A DNA stretch of 64,000 nt from Caryophanales bacterium UBA6985 (lineage in GTDB: Bacteria > Bacillota_I > Bacilli_A > RF39 > UBA660), in contig DJYF01000043.1 in assembly GCA_002450035.1 (NCBI GenBank), positions 1-64,000 of the forward strand. The letters run 5' to 3'. Every line of letters starts with the position of its first letter. Position 1 is the first letter of the stretch. Below the pieces are notes generated by a model. That model did not search any database. It saw only the letters and a program-made list of their open reading frames with translations, and was not told the DNA's origin. The translations under genes were made by a program, and so were the position numbers. Below are positions 2,323 through 16,825 of this stretch, piece by piece.

Positions 2323-3228
2323 CTAGTAAACCTCCTGTTTTAATAATTCTACAAAGTCTTCCATGATAGATTTATAACTAATACCATTGTTGATTTCATC
2401 ATCATCTAAATTAGCAAGTGAGTTAATTACTACTTTAGTTGCTCCATTATTTACAAGGTTTTTAACTTTTTCAGTTTCTTCGTCTCCTTCAAGCATGAAT
2501 ATATATTTAATATTTTTATTTTTAACTTCACTTAAAGCTTTATTATAATCAGCTGATGTATATTCTTCAGACTTATCATCTATTGAGTAAACTTTATAAC
2601 CATATTTATTTTCTAAGAATTTAAATGCATTATTAGTAACAACTATTTGACTATCAGATGCATTTTCTTTAACCATTTTAAGTTCAGCATCAAATGTAGA
2701 AATAATTAATTTTAAATCTTCAAACTTCTCATCTATATCTTTTAATATAACTGTTGAATTAATATAACTTTCTAAATCATCTTTAATATTTTGAGTAACC
2801 ATTAAATAGTTACCTGGATTAAACCATATTTCATCTTCAGAATAAATAGAACAATCTTTATTTTCTTTATTCTTTATACATAAACCCTTAGAAATATCTA
2901 TAAGCTTTATATTTTTATTATTATTTAAAAATGTAATAGCTAAATCTCCTTCTTTAGAAAGTCCATTATAAATAAGCATATTACTCTTTGAATATTCTTT
3001 GGCCTTTTTATCAGTTATTTTATATTTATCTACATCAACACCATTTGGATAAACAGATGTAATAGTAGAGTAATCACTATAAAGCATATTTATTGCATAT
3101 GTAATAGGATACTTTGTAGTAACTATATCAATTTCCTCCATAGTGTCTCCTTTAAAACACCCTGTTAAGCATGTAATACCAAGTACACCAACAGCACTTA
3201 ATTTCACTAATTTATTAAAAAACTTCAT
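2323..3228 (-). CDS. ZnuA/TroA-like lipoprotein with degenerate metal site
   Basis: 301 residues. The signal peptide ends in lipobox LTGC (Cys24), so this is a membrane-anchored lipoprotein. The body follows cluster A-I metal-binding proteins: YPNGVD near 60-65, LIYNGLSKE near 85-93, WFNP near 135 and AFKFLENKYG near 201. The three His ligands of that family appear replaced: Asp67 in the position of the DPH His, Glu133 before IWFNP, and Asn199 before NAF. No permease or ATPase is adjacent; the downstream partner is a DHH phosphoesterase. It may bind another ligand or have lost transport function. The start has an AAGGGAG site. Confidence 0.8.
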   Translation of the reverse strand: MKFFNKLVKLSAVGVLGITCLTGCFKGDTMEEIDIVTTKYPITYAINMLYSDYSTITSVYPNGVDVDKYKITDKKAKEYSKSNMLIYNGLSKEGDLAITFLNNNKNIKLIDISKGLCIKNKENKDCSIYSEDEIWFNPGNYLMVTQNIKDDLESYINSTVILKDIDEKFEDLKLIISTFDAELKMVKENASDSQIVVTNNAFKFLENKYGYKVYSIDDKSEEYTSADYNKALSEVKNKNIKYIFMLEGDEETEKVKNLVNNGATKVVINSLANLDDDEINNGISYKSIMEDFVELLKQEVY

Positions 3229-10276: not shown

Positions 10277-10303
10277 TTAGCACTATCTATTGACGAGTGC
10301 TAA
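10277..10303. promoter_or_regulatory. CIRCE element (HrcA operator)
   Basis: TTAGCACTA-N9-GAGTGCTAA matches the consensus TTAGCACTC-N9-GAGTGCTAA with one mismatch in the left arm. It overlaps the -35 of the hrcA operon promoter, as expected for HrcA autorepression. Confidence 0.95.
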
Positions 10304-10357: not shown

Positions 10358-11362
10358 ATGGGGGATAGACAACAAGAAATTCTAAGAGAAATCGTAGAAT
10401 CCTACATTAAAACATTTGAACCAATTCCATCAAAAGCATTGGTTGAAAAATTTAATTGTAGTTCTGCAACAATTAGAAATGATATGGCAGAATTAGAAGA
10501 ATTAGGTTATCTAGAAAAAGAACACACATCATCAGGACGTATACCTTCTGAAAAAGGATATAAGTACTATGTAGATAAACTAATGAAACCTAAAGAAATG
10601 ACAGGTGAAGATGTATTAAAACTACAAACTATATTAAATAATAATAAGTTAGTAGTATCTGATGCAGTAGAAAAATGCATGGAAATTATAAGTGACATAA
10701 CTCACTATACAACTATAGTAATTGGCCCTAATAAGAGCACTAGTACATTAAAACAAATTAATATTGTTCCATTAGACTCATCAATTGATGGGGATAGACC
10801 TGTTATTGCTGTATTAATAACTAATCAAGGTGATGTTGAGAATAAACAAATGGTTATATCAAAAGATATAAATATTAAAGAATTAACTCAAACATGTGAT
10901 ATTATTAATAAAGCTTTATCTGGAACACCAATAGATAAAGTAATTGAAAGACTTGAATTAGAAATTAAACCAAGAATTAGAGAAGTTGTTAACCAATATG
11001 AGCAAGTATATAATTTCTTCTCATCAGCATTCCAAGACTTTGCTATGGATAAGTCAGATGTTGTATTTGGAGGAAAAACTAATTTATTAGATTTTAAAGA
11101 ATACTCTGAACCTGATAAATTAAAAGAAATGGTATCAAAACTAGAAAACATTGATTTAGTTAAAAAGATTGATACTGATGATAACGATGTTAAAGTTTAT
11201 ATTGGTGAAGAAAATGAATTCGATTCTGATTCAACTATAATTAAAACTCATTATAGTGTTGAAGGAAGCGAAGGTACAATAGCTATTATTGGACCAAAGA
11301 GAATGGAATATGATAAAGTAGTTACTTTATTAAACTTCTTAAAGAAATATATAGAAAAATAG
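10358..11362 (+). CDS. hrcA: Heat-inducible transcription repressor HrcA
   Basis: 334 residues from ATG 10358, served by AAGGA nine bases upstream; an in-frame ATG at 10337 lies upstream of that site. HrcA binds CIRCE and represses chaperone genes, and its activity normally depends on GroEL. The N-terminal winged helix (DRQQEILREIV, SSATIRNDMAELEELGYLEKEHTSSGRIPSEKGY) is typical, as is the C-terminal GAF-like domain. It is first in the operon, directly behind CIRCE, and its stop codon overlaps the Shine-Dalgarno of grpE. Confidence 0.95.
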   Translation: MGDRQQEILREIVESYIKTFEPIPSKALVEKFNCSSATIRNDMAELEELGYLEKEHTSSGRIPSEKGYKYYVDKLMKPKEMTGEDVLKLQTILNNNKLVVSDAVEKCMEIISDITHYTTIVIGPNKSTSTLKQINIVPLDSSIDGDRPVIAVLITNQGDVENKQMVISKDINIKELTQTCDIINKALSGTPIDKVIERLELEIKPRIREVVNQYEQVYNFFSSAFQDFAMDKSDVVFGGKTNLLDFKEYSEPDKLKEMVSKLENIDLVKKIDTDDNDVKVYIGEENEFDSDSTIIKTHYSVEGSEGTIAIIGPKRMEYDKVVTLLNFLKKYIEK

Positions 11363-11371
11363 GTGACGAAA

Positions 11372-12004
11372 GTGGAAGATAAGAATAAAAAATGTAATTG
11401 CACACCTGAATGTGAATGCGGTTGCCAAGAAGGTAAAGAATGCACATGCGAAGGCGAATGTACATGTGGATGCCAAGAAGGCAAAGAGTGTACATGTGAA
11501 GGTGAATGCAAAAACGATAAAAAAGAAAAGAAACATGAATCACATCATGATCATAAAAACCACGAAAAAGTTCAAAAACTTGAAACTGAGTTAGCACAAG
11601 AAAAAGAAAAAGCACTTAGAATTCAAGCTGAAATGATGAATTTTAAAAGAAGAAGTGAAGAAACTATGGCTACTTTTAAAAAGTATGCTAACGAAGATAT
11701 CTTAAAAGAACTTTTAACAGTTCAAGATAACTTTGAAAGAGGTTTAACACTTGAAAGCGAAGAAAACAAAGAATTATTAAAGGGGTTTAGAATGATTTAT
11801 CAAAATATTGGTAAGATTCTAGAAGAAAATGGCGTAACTGAAATAGTCGCTGAAAATGTAGAATTTGATCCTAATGTACATCAAGCAGTTATGACTGGTA
11901 AAGTTGATGGTGTAGCACCAGGAATGGTAATACAAGTTTTACAAAAAGGATATAAATATAAAGAAAGAGTACTAAGACCAGCCATGGTTAAAGTATCTGA
12001 ATAA
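11372..12004 (+). CDS. grpE: GrpE nucleotide-exchange factor with metallothionein-like N-terminus
   Basis: 210 residues from GTG 11372, which has AGGTGA five bases upstream; an earlier in-frame GTG at 11363 has no ribosome site. The coiled coil (about 65-110) and the beta domain ([35 protein letters not shown]) are normal GrpE, which releases ADP from DnaK. Unusual: residues 8-46 contain 13 Cys in CxC and CxxxC patterns, including two copies of a 15-residue unit ([15 protein letters not shown]), followed by a His cluster ([10 protein letters not shown], 55-64). This resembles a metal-binding or redox tail fused to GrpE. Confidence 0.93.
11417..11509 (+). repeat. Cys-rich 15-codon direct repeat in grpE
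   Basis: Copies at 11417-11461 and 11465-11509 encode the identical peptide [15 protein letters not shown], separated by one Thr codon. Eight of the 15 codons differ between copies, all synonymously. The protein sequence has therefore been kept while the DNA diverged. Confidence 0.9.
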
Positions 12005-12023: not shown

Positions 12024-13844
12024 ATGGCAAAAATAATTGGTATTGACTTAGGTACAACAAACTCTTGTTGTGCAGTATTAGAAGGTGGTTCTCCAGTAGT
12101 TATTGCTAACTCAGACGGAGATAGAACTACTCCTTCTGTAGTAGCATTTAAAAATGGAGATGAAATAGTAGGTATTCAAGCTAAAAGACAAGCTATAACT
12201 AATGCTGATAATACTATTGCTTCTATTAAAAGAGAAATGGGAACATCTCATAAAGTAAAAGCTGAAGGTAAAGAATATACTCCTGAAGAAATTTCTGCAA
12301 AGATTCTTATGAAGATCAAACGTGATGCAGAAGCATATTTAGGAGAAAAAGTAACTCATGCAGTAATTACTGTTCCAGCATATTTTAATGATGCTCAAAG
12401 ACAAGCAACTAAGAATGCAGGTAAAATTGCAGGATTAGAAGTAGACAGAATTGTTAATGAACCAACAGCAGCTGCACTTGCTTATGGTTTAGATAAACAA
12501 GATAAATCTCAAACTATTTTAGTATATGACTTAGGTGGAGGTACATTCGATGTATCAATCCTTGAATTAGGTGATGGTGTATTCGAAGTTAAATCTACAT
12601 CTGGTAATAATAAATTAGGTGGAGATGATTTCGATGAAAGAGTATCTAAATACTTAATTGATGAAATCAAATCTCAAACTAAAGCTGATGTTTCTAAAGA
12701 TTCAATGGCTTTACAAAGAATTAAAGACGAAGCTGAAAAAGCTAAGAAAGCTCTATCTACTTCAACAACTACAACTATCAGCTTACCATTCATTGGTATG
12801 GTAGATGGTTCTCCAGTTAACTTCGAAATGGATTTAACTAGAGCTAAGTTTGAAGACTTAAATAAAGATTTATTTGATTCTACATTAGTACAAGTTAGAA
12901 ATGCACTTAAAGATGCAGGACTATCAAGTAGTGATATAGACCAAGTCGTTCTTGTAGGTGGATCTTCAAGAATTCCATATATTCAAGAACTTGTTAAGAA
13001 AGAATTAGGTAAAGAACCTAACAAAGGTGTTAACCCAGATGAAGTAGTAGCAATGGGTGCTGCTATTCAAGGTGGTGTTTTAACTGGTGAAGTTAATGAT
13101 TTAGTATTATTAGACGTAACTCCATTATCACTTGGTATTGAAACTTTAGGAGATGTAATGACTGTATTAATTCCAAGAAATACAACTATCCCAACTTCTA
13201 AATCACAAGTATTCTCAACTGCTCAAGATAATCAACCAGCTGTAGATATTCACGTATTACAAGGTGAAAGACCAATGGCTGCTGATAATAAGACTTTAGG
13301 AGAATTCCAATTAACAAATATTCCACCAGCAAGACGTGGAGTACCTCAAATTGAAGTTACATTTGATATCGATGCAAATGGTATCGTAAATGTTAAAGCT
13401 AAAGACTTAGGAACAGGAAAAGAACAAAAGATTACTATTACTAATAATACAAATCTATCTGATGAAGAAATCGATAAGATGATGAAAGAAGCTGAAGCAA
13501 ATAAAGAAGCAGATGAAAAACGTAAACAACTTGCTGATGCTAAGAATGAAGCTGAACAAGCAATATTCGCTGCTGAAGGTGCTATAAGAGATCTTGGAGA
13601 TAAAGTTAAAGATGATGAAAAGAAAGACGTTGAAGAAAAGACTGAAGCTCTAAGAAAAGCACTTGCTGAAGAAAAACCTGAAATCGATGACATCAAAGAA
13701 AAGACTAAAGCTCTACAAGATGTAGCAATGGCTTTAGCTGGCAGAGTATATGAGGAAGCATCTAAGAATGCAAATAATGATTCTGCTGATGCATCAAATG
13801 ACACTGCTGAAGAAGCTGAATTTGTAAATAAAGAAGATAAATAA
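12024..13844 (+). CDS. dnaK: Molecular chaperone DnaK (Hsp70)
   Basis: 606 residues. This ATP-dependent chaperone works with DnaJ and GrpE. The signature [11 protein letters not shown] is at 5-15, [12 protein letters not shown] near 170, and [13 protein letters not shown] near 310. A substrate-binding domain with typical [11 protein letters not shown] follows, then a helical lid and an acidic C-terminus ([12 protein letters not shown]). The start is supported by AGAGGAATT. It follows grpE by 19 bases and ends at a strong terminator that may reduce expression of pepF and dnaJ downstream. Confidence 0.97.
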
Positions 13845-13894: not shown

Positions 13895-15688
13895 ATGGAT
13901 AAATACAAGAATCGAAACGAAGTTCCTTCAAAATATAAATGGGATTTAAGTGATTTTTATAAAAATGATGAGGAGTTAGAGAGAGACTTTAAAAAGGGAG
14001 AAGAACTAATAAACCTTCTTCCTTCTTATAAAGGCTTTTCTAAAGACTCTAAAAAGACATTAGAATTATTAAAACTTATAATAGATGCAAATATAGTTGT
14101 AGAAAACCTTTATGTTTATACATATTTAGTTAACGATCAAGAATTAGGATTATCAAAGAGTATTAAGAATAAAGCAAGAGCAGAAAATCTTATGTCTTTA
14201 TTCTCCGTTAACACTAGTTATTTTGAACCTGAACTATTAAGTTTAAGTGAAAGTGAATATGAAGATTTATTTAAAGAAGATGGTTTAAAAGAATTTAGAG
14301 CAATGCTTGATCAAATCTATAGGGAAAAAGAACATGTATTAAGTGATGCAGAAGAGAAAATAATTGCATCTCTTACTCATGCAGCCGATCACTATGATGA
14401 TATGTCATCAACTATGCTTAATAGTGAACATGACTATGGTACTGTAGAAATAAATGGTACTCCTACAACTATTACATCAACTAATTATAGAAGTTTAATG
14501 AAAAATGACTCAAGAGAGTTAAGAAAAGAAATAAGAGAGAAATACTCTAAGACTTTAGAACAATATGGTGCATCTTCTGCAATGTTCTTAAGTACATATG
14601 TTGCACTTAATGAAACAGAAGCACGTATTCATAAGTTTAATTCTGCTTGGGAAAGAAAAATGTTTGGTCTAAATATGAGTGAAGATGTATTTAGAACACT
14701 TGTTAGTACAGTTGAAGAACATGTAGGCTCTCTTCAAAACTATTTTAAACTTTATAAAAGTGAATTAGGTCTTGATGAATTACATCAATATGATACTTCT
14801 TTAGAAATGAGTAAAAATACTAAAGAATATACTATTGAAGAAGCTCAAGATATTATTTTAAAAGCACTTAAACCATTAGGTGAAGATTACCTAAAACATA
14901 TTAAAAAAGTATTTGATAATCATTATATAGATTATTGTGAATATAAAGGAAAATGCTCAGGTGGTTATTCATTCTCAACAATTGACCACGATTCTAGAAT
15001 TCTTTTATCCTTCAATGGTAACTTAGATGATGTATCAACTATTGCTCATGAAGGTGGTCATAATGTACATCATCAATATGTTAAAGATTCAAATCCTCCA
15101 GAGTATAGAGAACTTCCATCTATAGTATGTGAAGTAGCATCTCTTACAAATGAGTGCCTATTATCTAGTTATTTAGCTGATAATGGAGAAACTAAAGAAG
15201 AAAAACTTGCTGGTATAGATAATATACTAGGAGTAATTATATCTAATCTATTTGGTGCTGTAAGAGAAGGTAAGATTGAAGAGGATATGTATAAAGAGTA
15301 CTCTAAAAATGGTGCTGTAACTAAAGAATTTATGGATAAAGAAGTAATTGATTCATTTAAGAAGTACTATGGAGATACTCTAGTTTTAGATGATTACTCA
15401 AATGTTTCATGGATGAGAAGAAGCCACTATTACATGAATTACTATTTATATAGTTATTCAATATGTATAAGTGTGGCATCATTCGTTGCAAAACATATCT
15501 TAGATGGAGATAAATCAATGTTAGATAAATACTTAAACTTCTTAAAAACAGGAGGAGATAAATATCCAACTGAGATATTTGAAATATTAGGTATAGATCT
15601 AACTAAAAAGGAAGTATATGAAGATGCTATTAAGTATTTTGATAGCATGATTGATAAATATAAAGAAATAAGTAATACAAGAAAGTAG
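13895..15688 (+). CDS. pepF: Oligoendopeptidase F (M3 family)
   Basis: 597 residues, the usual length for PepF. It is a cytoplasmic zinc metallopeptidase that cleaves short peptides. The zinc motif HEGGH is at 385-389 within STIAHEGGHNVHHQY, and the third ligand Glu lies in the following CEVASLTNE segment. The N-terminal PepF fold (PSKYKWDLSDFY) is clear. GGAGGATG precedes the ATG. It sits between dnaK and dnaJ, an uncommon place, and ends 9 bases before dnaJ, so peptide clearance may be co-expressed with the chaperones. Confidence 0.93.
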   Translation: MDKYKNRNEVPSKYKWDLSDFYKNDEELERDFKKGEELINLLPSYKGFSKDSKKTLELLKLIIDANIVVENLYVYTYLVNDQELGLSKSIKNKARAENLMSLFSVNTSYFEPELLSLSESEYEDLFKEDGLKEFRAMLDQIYREKEHVLSDAEEKIIASLTHAADHYDDMSSTMLNSEHDYGTVEINGTPTTITSTNYRSLMKNDSRELRKEIREKYSKTLEQYGASSAMFLSTYVALNETEARIHKFNSAWERKMFGLNMSEDVFRTLVSTVEEHVGSLQNYFKLYKSELGLDELHQYDTSLEMSKNTKEYTIEEAQDIILKALKPLGEDYLKHIKKVFDNHYIDYCEYKGKCSGGYSFSTIDHDSRILLSFNGNLDDVSTIAHEGGHNVHHQYVKDSNPPEYRELPSIVCEVASLTNECLLSSYLADNGETKEEKLAGIDNILGVIISNLFGAVREGKIEEDMYKEYSKNGAVTKEFMDKEVIDSFKKYYGDTLVLDDYSNVSWMRRSHYYMNYYLYSYSICISVASFVAKHILDGDKSMLDKYLNFLKTGGDKYPTEIFEILGIDLTKKEVYEDAIKYFDSMIDKYKEISNTRK

Positions 15689-15697
15689 GCAGATTAT

Positions 15698-16825
15698 ATG
15701 GCAGATAAAATGGATTACTATGAACTACTTGGTGTAAGTAAAACTGCTAGTGATGCTGAGATAAAATCAGCATTTAGAAAACTTGCTAAAAAATATCACC
15801 CAGATAACAAAGAAACTGGAGATGAAGCTAAATTTAAAGAAATTGGTGAAGCATATGCTGTTTTAAGTGATAAACAAAAACGTGCTCAATATGATCAATT
15901 TGGACATCAAGCATTCACTAATGGTGGTGGATATGCAAATGGTGCCGGAGGATTTGGTGGTTTTGACTTTGGAGACTTTGACCTAGGAGATTTATTCGAT
16001 ATGTTCGGAGGAGGTAGCTTCGGAGGATTCGGAAGAGGATCTAGAAGTCACTCAAACTCTGCATCCAAGGGTGCTGATATAGAAGTAAATATTGATTTAA
16101 CATTTGAAGAAGCTGTATATGGCTGTGAAAAAACTTTCAAAGTTAAATTATTTGACTCATGTTCTGAGTGTAATGGCAAAGGTGGTAAAGGAGAAAAAAC
16201 ATGTGCTACTTGTCATGGAAGTGGAAGAGTAGTAACTCAACAAAGAACAATTCTAGGTGTTGTACAAACTCAAACAACATGTCCAGATTGTCATGGTAAA
16301 GGTGAAACATTCTCTGAATCATGCTCTGAATGTGGAGGTAAAGGTATTGTTGAATCTTCTAAAGAAATTAAATTACGTGTTCCAAGAGGCGTTGAAAGTG
16401 GAGACACTATGCGTATGGCTGGAAAAGGTAATGCTGGTTTAAATGGAGGTCCAAGAGGAGATATCTATATTAACTTCACAGTTAAAGAACATGAATTATA
16501 TAAAAGAGATGGAAGAGATATTTATATCAACATTCCTCTTACTATTACAGAAGCAGTTCTAGGATGTGAAAAAGATGTACCAACTATTCATGGAACAGTT
16601 GTTACAAAGATACCTGCAGGTACTCAAAACCTAGAAAAATTCAGATTCAAAGGTAAAGGTGTTGATGATGAGAAGTCAGGTAAACTAGGAGATGCATATG
16701 GTATTATTAATATCATTATTCCTACTAAACTTGATAAGACTCAAAAAGAACTATTTAAAGAATTAAGTGAAACATCTTTAGATAAGAATCCTGAATTTAA
16801 AAACTATTATAAATATACAGAATAA
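15698..16825 (+). CDS. dnaJ: Co-chaperone DnaJ (Hsp40)
   Basis: 375 residues. The J domain with HPD (KKYHPDN, ~33) activates the DnaK ATPase. A Gly/Phe-rich linker at about 75-125 is followed by a zinc domain with four CxxCxGxG repeats (CSECNGKG, CATCHGSG, CPDCHGKG, CSECGGKG) and the C-terminal substrate-binding domains (VPRGVESGDTMRMAGKGNAG). All domains of a type I DnaJ are present. Its Shine-Dalgarno (GTAGGCAG) is weak. It ends the chaperone cluster. Confidence 0.96.
   Translation: MADKMDYYELLGVSKTASDAEIKSAFRKLAKKYHPDNKETGDEAKFKEIGEAYAVLSDKQKRAQYDQFGHQAFTNGGGYANGAGGFGGFDFGDFDLGDLFDMFGGGSFGGFGRGSRSHSNSASKGADIEVNIDLTFEEAVYGCEKTFKVKLFDSCSECNGKGGKGEKTCATCHGSGRVVTQQRTILGVVQTQTTCPDCHGKGETFSESCSECGGKGIVESSKEIKLRVPRGVESGDTMRMAGKGNAGLNGGPRGDIYINFTVKEHELYKRDGRDIYINIPLTITEAVLGCEKDVPTIHGTVVTKIPAGTQNLEKFRFKGKGVDDEKSGKLGDAYGIINIIIPTKLDKTQKELFKELSETSLDKNPEFKNYYKYTE

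Follow-up and report, generated by a model that had tools for sequence, protein, structure and literature searches.

A Metallothionein-Like N-Terminal Tail on a Bacterial GrpE and Recurrence of Its Cysteine-Rich Module on Unrelated Proteins

In the bacterial Hsp70 cycle GrpE is a central component, whose disordered N terminus is commonly regarded as a generic tail. Escherichia coli SlyD, which assists folding, carries a Cys/His-rich tail at its C terminus, and an FKBP-domain protein found in this study (L019) is similar in that an 11-residue peptide of the module described here follows a His-rich repeat; this is another protein, however, with its tail at the opposite end from that of GrpE. The nearest functional precedent for the GrpE tail, as a co-chaperone with a metal tail, is HspA, the GroES of Helicobacter pylori, a single-copy essential co-chaperone with a nickel-binding His/Cys C-terminal extension; deletion of the extension is viable, nickel content goes down and nickel sensitivity up, and a role in nickel storage was proposed (PMC3856676). 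HspA differs in being a GroES with a C-terminal tail for nickel and no homology, whereas the GrpE tail is N-terminal, occurs in many species, and is also found as a separate gene. GRPEL2 and Ruc (Rv0991c) likewise work with Hsp70 and have redox-active or zinc-coordinating features, but neither is known to us to carry a metallothionein-like array, and the tail is not homologous to them as far as compared.

Tandem CxC-rich units like those of the tail are found in fungal Cu-thioneins (Neurospora crassa, Cryptococcus, and Tremella), which differ in being free-standing eukaryotic proteins, and sequence homology to the GrpE tail was not seen. We know of none that is fused to a chaperone cofactor. 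The Tremella protein is a Cu-thionein of six 7-Cys blocks, CXCX3CSCPPGXCXCAXCP (PMC4755600). Among the matches listed in the open-licence literature on GrpE tails, bacterial metallothioneins, and RF39, a metallothionein-like GrpE was not described.

The gene studied here lies in a 64,000-nucleotide stretch of DNA from Caryophanales bacterium UBA6985 (the window), where the gene order is CIRCE-hrcA-grpE-dnaK, followed by a pepF-like gene and dnaJ. The CIRCE operator, the HrcA binding site (10277..10303, + strand), stands upstream of hrcA with one mismatch to what we take to be the consensus, and it is the single match in the window against 0.02 expected by chance. The heat-shock repressor gene hrcA (10358..11362, +; PF01628, E 6.4e-46) has a mechanical open reading frame from 10337, but on reading the sequence we prefer the second ATG at 10358 for its better Shine-Dalgarno. 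The mechanical frame of grpE opens at GTG 11363, immediately past the hrcA stop; read directly, a Shine-Dalgarno-like AGGTGA (11361..11366, +) that overlaps the end of hrcA would serve GTG 11372, giving a 210-residue protein (11372..12004 with the stop codon, 11372-12001 without, +; PF01025, E 1.4e-46). Next come dnaK, encoding the 606-residue GrpE partner (12024..13844, +; PF00012, E 9.5e-242), the pepF-like peptidase gene (13895-15688), and dnaJ with its CXXCXGXG central domain (15698..16825, +; PF00226, PF00684, and PF01556). As expected of GrpE, the gene thus sits between hrcA and dnaK with a CIRCE upstream. The same window also encodes a ZnuA-like zinc-uptake binding protein (2326-3228, - strand).

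With GTG 11372 as residue 1, a recount bore out the preliminary description of the tail, which had 13 cysteines at residues 8-46 and five histidines at residues 55-64. The Cys-rich segment (11393..11509, +) holds its 13 cysteines in 39 residues at successive spacings of 2, 4, 2, 2, 6, 2, 4, 2, 2, 6, 2, and 4, and the His-rich linker (11534..11563, +), which is similar in near homologues, has its histidines at residues 55, 58, 59, 61, and 64. Two identical 15-residue repeat units (11417..11461 and 11465..11509, both +) use different, synonymous codons at 8 of their 15 positions, just as had been described. A degenerate pattern of the unit matched only these two places in the window, and the mean over 100 shuffles was 0.00. 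The Cys spacing of the unit is CxC-x5-CxC-x3-CxC, which we take to be that of the Neurospora crassa metallothionein. In residues 1-49 there are 13 cysteines, no aromatic residue, and no histidine, which is the composition of a metallothionein; the segment is nevertheless the tail of a 210-residue protein rather than a small free-standing protein. No Pfam model matched the tail, and a sequence search of the PDB found no metallothioneins.

Behind this tail the protein has an ordinary GrpE core. It scores 158.6 bits against PF01025 (cut-off, 25.8) and also exceeds the cut-off of NF010738. The whole core aligns with PDB entries 4ani (E 4.2e-33, from residue 65) and 1dkg (E 6.4e-23, from residue 62), presumably the Geobacillus and E. 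coli GrpEs, respectively, and the only match reported to start inside the Cys-rich segment, at residue 20, is the mitochondrial GrpE 9qid_B. An AlphaFold2 model (monomer, 39 sequences; pTM 0.47) predicts a GrpE-like core (11543..12001, +) made of a long helix (58-126), a second helix (137-152), and a C-terminal beta domain with strands at 155-209, with pLDDT of 74-94 by ten-residue blocks, mostly at least 87, and no structure for residues 1-57. In the model, the core thus follows a disordered tail of 57 residues. Because the modeled tail joins the long helix directly through the His-rich linker, it might act as a metal or redox switch, in which bound metal or a disulfide would make the paired tails of a GrpE dimer fold up or become crosslinked and so alter the release of ADP or client by DnaK. 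The preliminary description had proposed such a response to metals or redox state, which is conceivable, and also that the tail could recruit GrpE to metal-stress damage. Precedents for such regulation include human GRPEL2, which under oxidative stress dimerizes through disulfides (PMC8347752), and Ruc, a redox-regulated, zinc-coordinating disordered chaperone that aids Hsp70 (PMC7448276). Given the variability of the tails among relatives, which is taken up below, we consider a switch unlikely.

The preliminary description had allowed that translation might start downstream of the Cys-rich part, which would remove the tail from the protein. Between GTG 11372 and ATG 11633 there is no in-frame ATG, GTG, TTG, or CTG, and the sole ATT is at 11621, so a downstream start would work only if the long GrpE helix were shortened as well. 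We therefore rejected it: the tail is encoded in frame and must be translated.

Among the 26 best homologues of the window GrpE, 23 have at least 8 cysteines in the N-terminal tail, so we rejected a chance repeat or an assembly artifact. The proposal that relatives share the tail thus stood for most of these homologues, and the absence that was to count against it, relatives without the tail or without Cys conservation, was found in only three. In two of these (P0008 and P0024) the Cys part is missing and a similar His-rich linker is kept, which argues against a precise switch; the third (P0026) has an unrelated N terminus, possibly a misjoin, and was counted as being without the tail. The next ten homologues (P0027-P0036) have 0 or 1 tail cysteine. 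The nearest GrpE among 33 genomes from the exact-peptide loci described below was that of the goat-rumen Bacilli MAG RGIG3504 (G015; 68% identical), and later searches found GrpEs in G123 and G272 that are 71-72% identical to the window GrpE over the matches.

To place these tails more widely, we surveyed the order to which G015 belongs. A GrpE match was present in 230 of the 241 genomes searched, and tails were read from 146 among the matches listed (30 loci from the searches plus 116 more), with G191, G084, G234, and G087 left out for internal stops in the matched stretch. At least 8 tail cysteines were present in 19 of these, 4-7 in 30, 1-3 in 16, and none in 81. The resulting 49 of 146 with at least 4 tail cysteines over-represents tails, since the query carried a tail and the reading was taken from the best 150 of 230 matches; the share would be 49/230 if the other 84 genomes had none. 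Cysteine makes up 401 of 7,440 tail residues versus 136 of 20,303 core residues. For comparison, we drew 40 GrpEs from the phylum (translation table 11), none in the order draw although they may include unsampled members of the order, and 33 had no tail cysteine, 6 had 1-3, and one (L299) had 12. The claim that ordinary GrpE tails are free of cysteine therefore holds in this control. The L299 tail is of a different Cys-rich kind, with repeated CC motifs, and is probably an independent case.

This distribution bears on two of the alternatives. The 49 Cys-rich tails differ in length, have from 4 to 25 cysteines, and follow no common order, unlike the single geometry that a switch would be expected to have; in addition, the sister pair L116 and L234 has 24 and 26 tail histidines, respectively, and no cysteine, and 81 of the 146 relatives have no tail cysteine at all. 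Three other GrpEs of the order combine 4-7 tail cysteines with 12-19 histidines. A second alternative is that GrpE hands over metal during refolding, such as zinc destined for DnaJ or for client proteins. The window does encode a DnaJ with the CXXCXGXG domain, and the HspA extension has a part in hydrogenase maturation in addition to storage (PMC3856676). Such delivery is nonetheless very improbable, because no client or partner is indicated and most of the relatives read are without the tail.

Judged from the loci translated, the Cys-rich tail is also not a by-product of proteomes rich in cysteine. The pattern CxCx3CxC gave 127 matches in 8 genomes, and among 50 translated loci, some of which represent the same match, a long frame was found only at grpE (G263, G272, and G116), while the others contained stops or had at most 74 codons. 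In the remaining five genomes there were matches at the known grpE coordinates, and in G015 also at a stand-alone gene. When the window tail alone was the query, 7 of the 241 order genomes matched, in two cases at grpE, and the repeat unit had no match in viral contigs.

We followed the history of the tail on a FastTree tree built from 140 columns of 188 GrpE cores, in which many forks are open. On this tree the state of having at least 4 tail cysteines requires at least 22 changes, 7 of which are forced by well-supported branches, compared with an average of 60 for shuffled labels. The tail state on GrpE has thus changed several times, whether by gain, loss, or transfer. The clade of the window holds 16 rows, 14 of them Cys-rich, and is nested in a supported clade of 24 rows in which the other eight are Cys-poor. 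With these Cys-poor rows around the window clade, the window tail and the near-identical peptides on the distant GrpEs P0039, P0055, and L065 probably did not arise by a single unbroken descent.

A further alternative is that the tail is a neutral, low-complexity expansion of a disordered region that is Cys-rich by happenstance. Some features do look neutral: GrpE tail length varies freely, whole units of 6 or 16 residues were inserted or deleted within six subclades, and the tail dN/dS of one close genome pair (L209/L219) is about 0.7, a value that rests on few changes. In the same six hand-chosen subclades (50 sequences), however, only 3 of 87 Cys columns vary versus 58 of 160 other columns (p 5e-10), so that Cys positions are kept while their neighbors change, in agreement with the conserved extension proposed at the outset. 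The dN/dS analysis suggested at that stage gave a divided answer: among the four closest Cys-rich genome pairs, the tail ratio is about 0.14-0.31 in three, above that of the core, and L209/L219 is the exception. Individual pairs show the same at the cysteines themselves, with 6 synonymous changes and no replacement over 12 Cys columns in L097/L111 (tail dN 0.11, dS 0.74) and 8 synonymous changes and none replaced over 15 Cys columns in L095/L100; in the more divergent L110/L153, Cys was replaced in 5 of 7 columns. Spacing is also distinctive, as CxC accounts for 48.6% of nearest Cys spacings in the 49 Cys-rich GrpE tails versus 19% in shuffles and adjacent CC for 3.9% versus 25%. Together with the excess of tail over core cysteine and the synonymous-only changes of Cys codons, such near fixation makes a neutral origin scarcely credible.

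The module is not confined to GrpE. A protein search using the Cys-rich residues only, among proteins of limited length, returned 61 proteins, 50 with a GrpE domain and 11 others that include DUF1292 proteins with an insert and DUF1904-like, ArsR, and AbrB/MazE-like proteins. An exact DNA scan of genome contigs for the 11-residue peptide found 60 stretches, which by reading comprise 29 stand-alone open reading frames, 6 GrpEs, and 25 others, among them a histidyl-tRNA synthetase (HisRS), an aquaporin, an FKBP, and a YlbF-family protein (Pfam-checked in L007, L020, L019, and L031). The same or a near-identical peptide occurs on ArsR, ferredoxin, HisRS, DUF1292, and aquaporin proteins. The titles of the 60 records name Bacilli, Clostridia, Alphaproteobacteria, Rickettsiales, Akkermansia, Gastranaerophilales, and Cryptobacteroides; the records are mostly MAGs, and the titles point to animal guts. 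A profile of the module (14 rows, 7 of them GrpE tails) found it in 21 of the 241 order genomes, at grpE in 8 and also at ArsR, ferredoxin, and HisRS, although this search does not rank the bearers since five of the eight genomes with a grpE match had supplied rows of the profile. Sharing of one module with unrelated proteins is a further argument against a switch specific to GrpE.

Several of these architectures are worth describing individually. HisRS carries a metallothionein-like C-terminal tail in three genomes (L007, L368, and L369, with L368 assigned by similarity to the other two), and two ArsR-family repressors (L361 and P0138) have a long C-terminal tail of this type. In five DUF1292 proteins (P0122, P0125, P0127, P0128, and P0131) the Cys-rich module is inserted in mid-domain. 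Ten small proteins among the 25 others of the exact-peptide scan, from alphaproteobacterial (or Pseudomonadota) MAGs (L003, L022, L026, L033, L037, L038, L039, L045, L047, and L053) have the module ahead of a hydrophobic stretch and end in a Cys/His-rich sequence.

Other carriers bear on the idea that the tail is a thiol shield or a store of sulfur or metal cofactor, buffering oxidants, persulfide, or Fe-S/zinc for clients rather than detoxifying metal. Short ferredoxin-like proteins (L363 and L364, at about 1291-1629, and L373) have a similar C-terminal Cys-rich module, and L363 and L364, which were Pfam-checked, are 4Fe-4S ferredoxins; in L372, a long open frame, the module stands shortly before a C terminus that by eye is thioredoxin/glutaredoxin-like. 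These partners suit such a store, but the prevalence of CxC, the depletion of CC and CxxC, and the lack of aromatics form the pattern of a metallothionein, and the CsoR-family and ArsR partners point to metal, so that we find a shield or store quite unlikely.

The stand-alone forms seem to represent a family of their own. They are 42-78 residues long, except for two of 136 residues. A protein with three module copies (P0132) passes Pfam Metallothio_5 with 31.0 versus 25 bits over the whole protein; of nine stand-alone proteins compared with the same model, eight fall below its cut-off and L043 has no match. No NCBIfam match was found for 7 stand-alone frames. Homologues of one member fall into 70 clusters, none with a precomputed Pfam domain, two of which are named 'hypothetical protein' and the rest unnamed. 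One stand-alone gene (L023) adjoins an Hsp90 (htpG-like) gene, which is possibly a further link to chaperones.

The neighborhoods of the stand-alone genes were examined at 26 of the 29 loci, with a Pfam scan of 49 of the 178 listed neighboring frames. CsoR-family genes (PF02583) account for 4 of the 49, at 4 of the 26 loci, and the other metal-related matches are one to a cation efflux family and one to an ArsP-like permease family. In three Bacilli MAGs the CsoR-family gene is directly upstream of the small metallothionein-like gene, and the choice of start decides whether the two overlap or are some 10 nt apart (L040:5827-6274, in G015; L050:6598-7048; and L032:7051-7550); the L009 CsoR-family gene is found downstream instead, at a distance of about 100 nt. 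The three upstream pairs are probable metal-sensing operons with an undescribed metallothionein-like protein. All four CsoR-family proteins have an invariant Cys-His-Cys at spacing 25 and 4, as in the triad with which CsoR binds copper. In the PDB, the L040 protein is matched best by a CsoR, 4m1p (E 1.6e-15), and then by further members of the family, a nickel sensor and a formaldehyde sensor among them. For L040 and L009, the two tested, the best NCBIfam model is the copper sensor RicR, far below its cut-off, and neither protein reaches the cut-off of a copper, nickel, or formaldehyde sensor model. Judged from these sequences, the CsoR neighbors favor copper for the stand-alone form, and less so for GrpE. 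Across the 146 genomes we found no association of the GrpE tail with CsoR (a CsoR-family match in 8 of 51 tail-bearing genomes versus 26 of 95 others; p 0.15). The two forms seldom co-occur in a non-random set of 22 genomes with both a stand-alone module and a GrpE match, where only G015 has a tail with at least 8 cysteines and three more have four.

Taken together, we lean toward a portable metallothionein-like module on a normal GrpE, chelating soft metals as a buffer at the Hsp70 machine. In this uncultured Bacilli lineage of the gut, GrpE would remain a normal nucleotide exchange factor with the module mounted on its disordered N terminus, a metal buffer tethered to a chaperone and not a new enzyme. 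We infer metal binding, the identity of the metal, co-induction, and a benefit at the Hsp70 machine as follows. The module would bind soft, thiol-loving ions such as Cu(I), Zn(II), Cd(II), or As(III) in metal-thiolate clusters, with copper perhaps slightly favored among these candidates; CsoR-family neighbors and the ArsR fusions support metal-related settings for the module as far as its genomic associations go. With grpE in the CIRCE/HrcA heat-shock operon, chelating capacity would rise together with Hsp70 upon protein damage, and the chelator would be held beside DnaK, where misfolded, metal-exposed clients may gather. Conserved composition, variable geometry, and the stand-in of poly-His fit chelation better than a precise allosteric switch. 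Soft metals and metalloids (Ag, Au, Hg, Te, Cd, and As) aggregate proteins in anaerobic E. coli, as reported in an abstract that does not name copper or zinc among them (PMC10699150), and such aggregation would make it useful for chelators to stay close to Hsp70. The Hsp70 machine may even double as a metal device, in which repeatedly acquired Cys or His tails become loaded in the cell and gate or localize DnaK under soft-metal stress by way of a mobile module that is also on ferredoxin, HisRS, ArsR, and other proteins, a possibility that we regard as doubtful.

Beyond GrpE, the analysis brings to light small metallothionein-like proteins of bacteria that make up a family, with CsoR-family genes next to some of them, as well as a module that is found on unrelated proteins in several phyla. 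For GrpE itself, the recurrent gain or loss of metallothionein-like or poly-His tails would link metal stress to protein folding in a way that can be tested.
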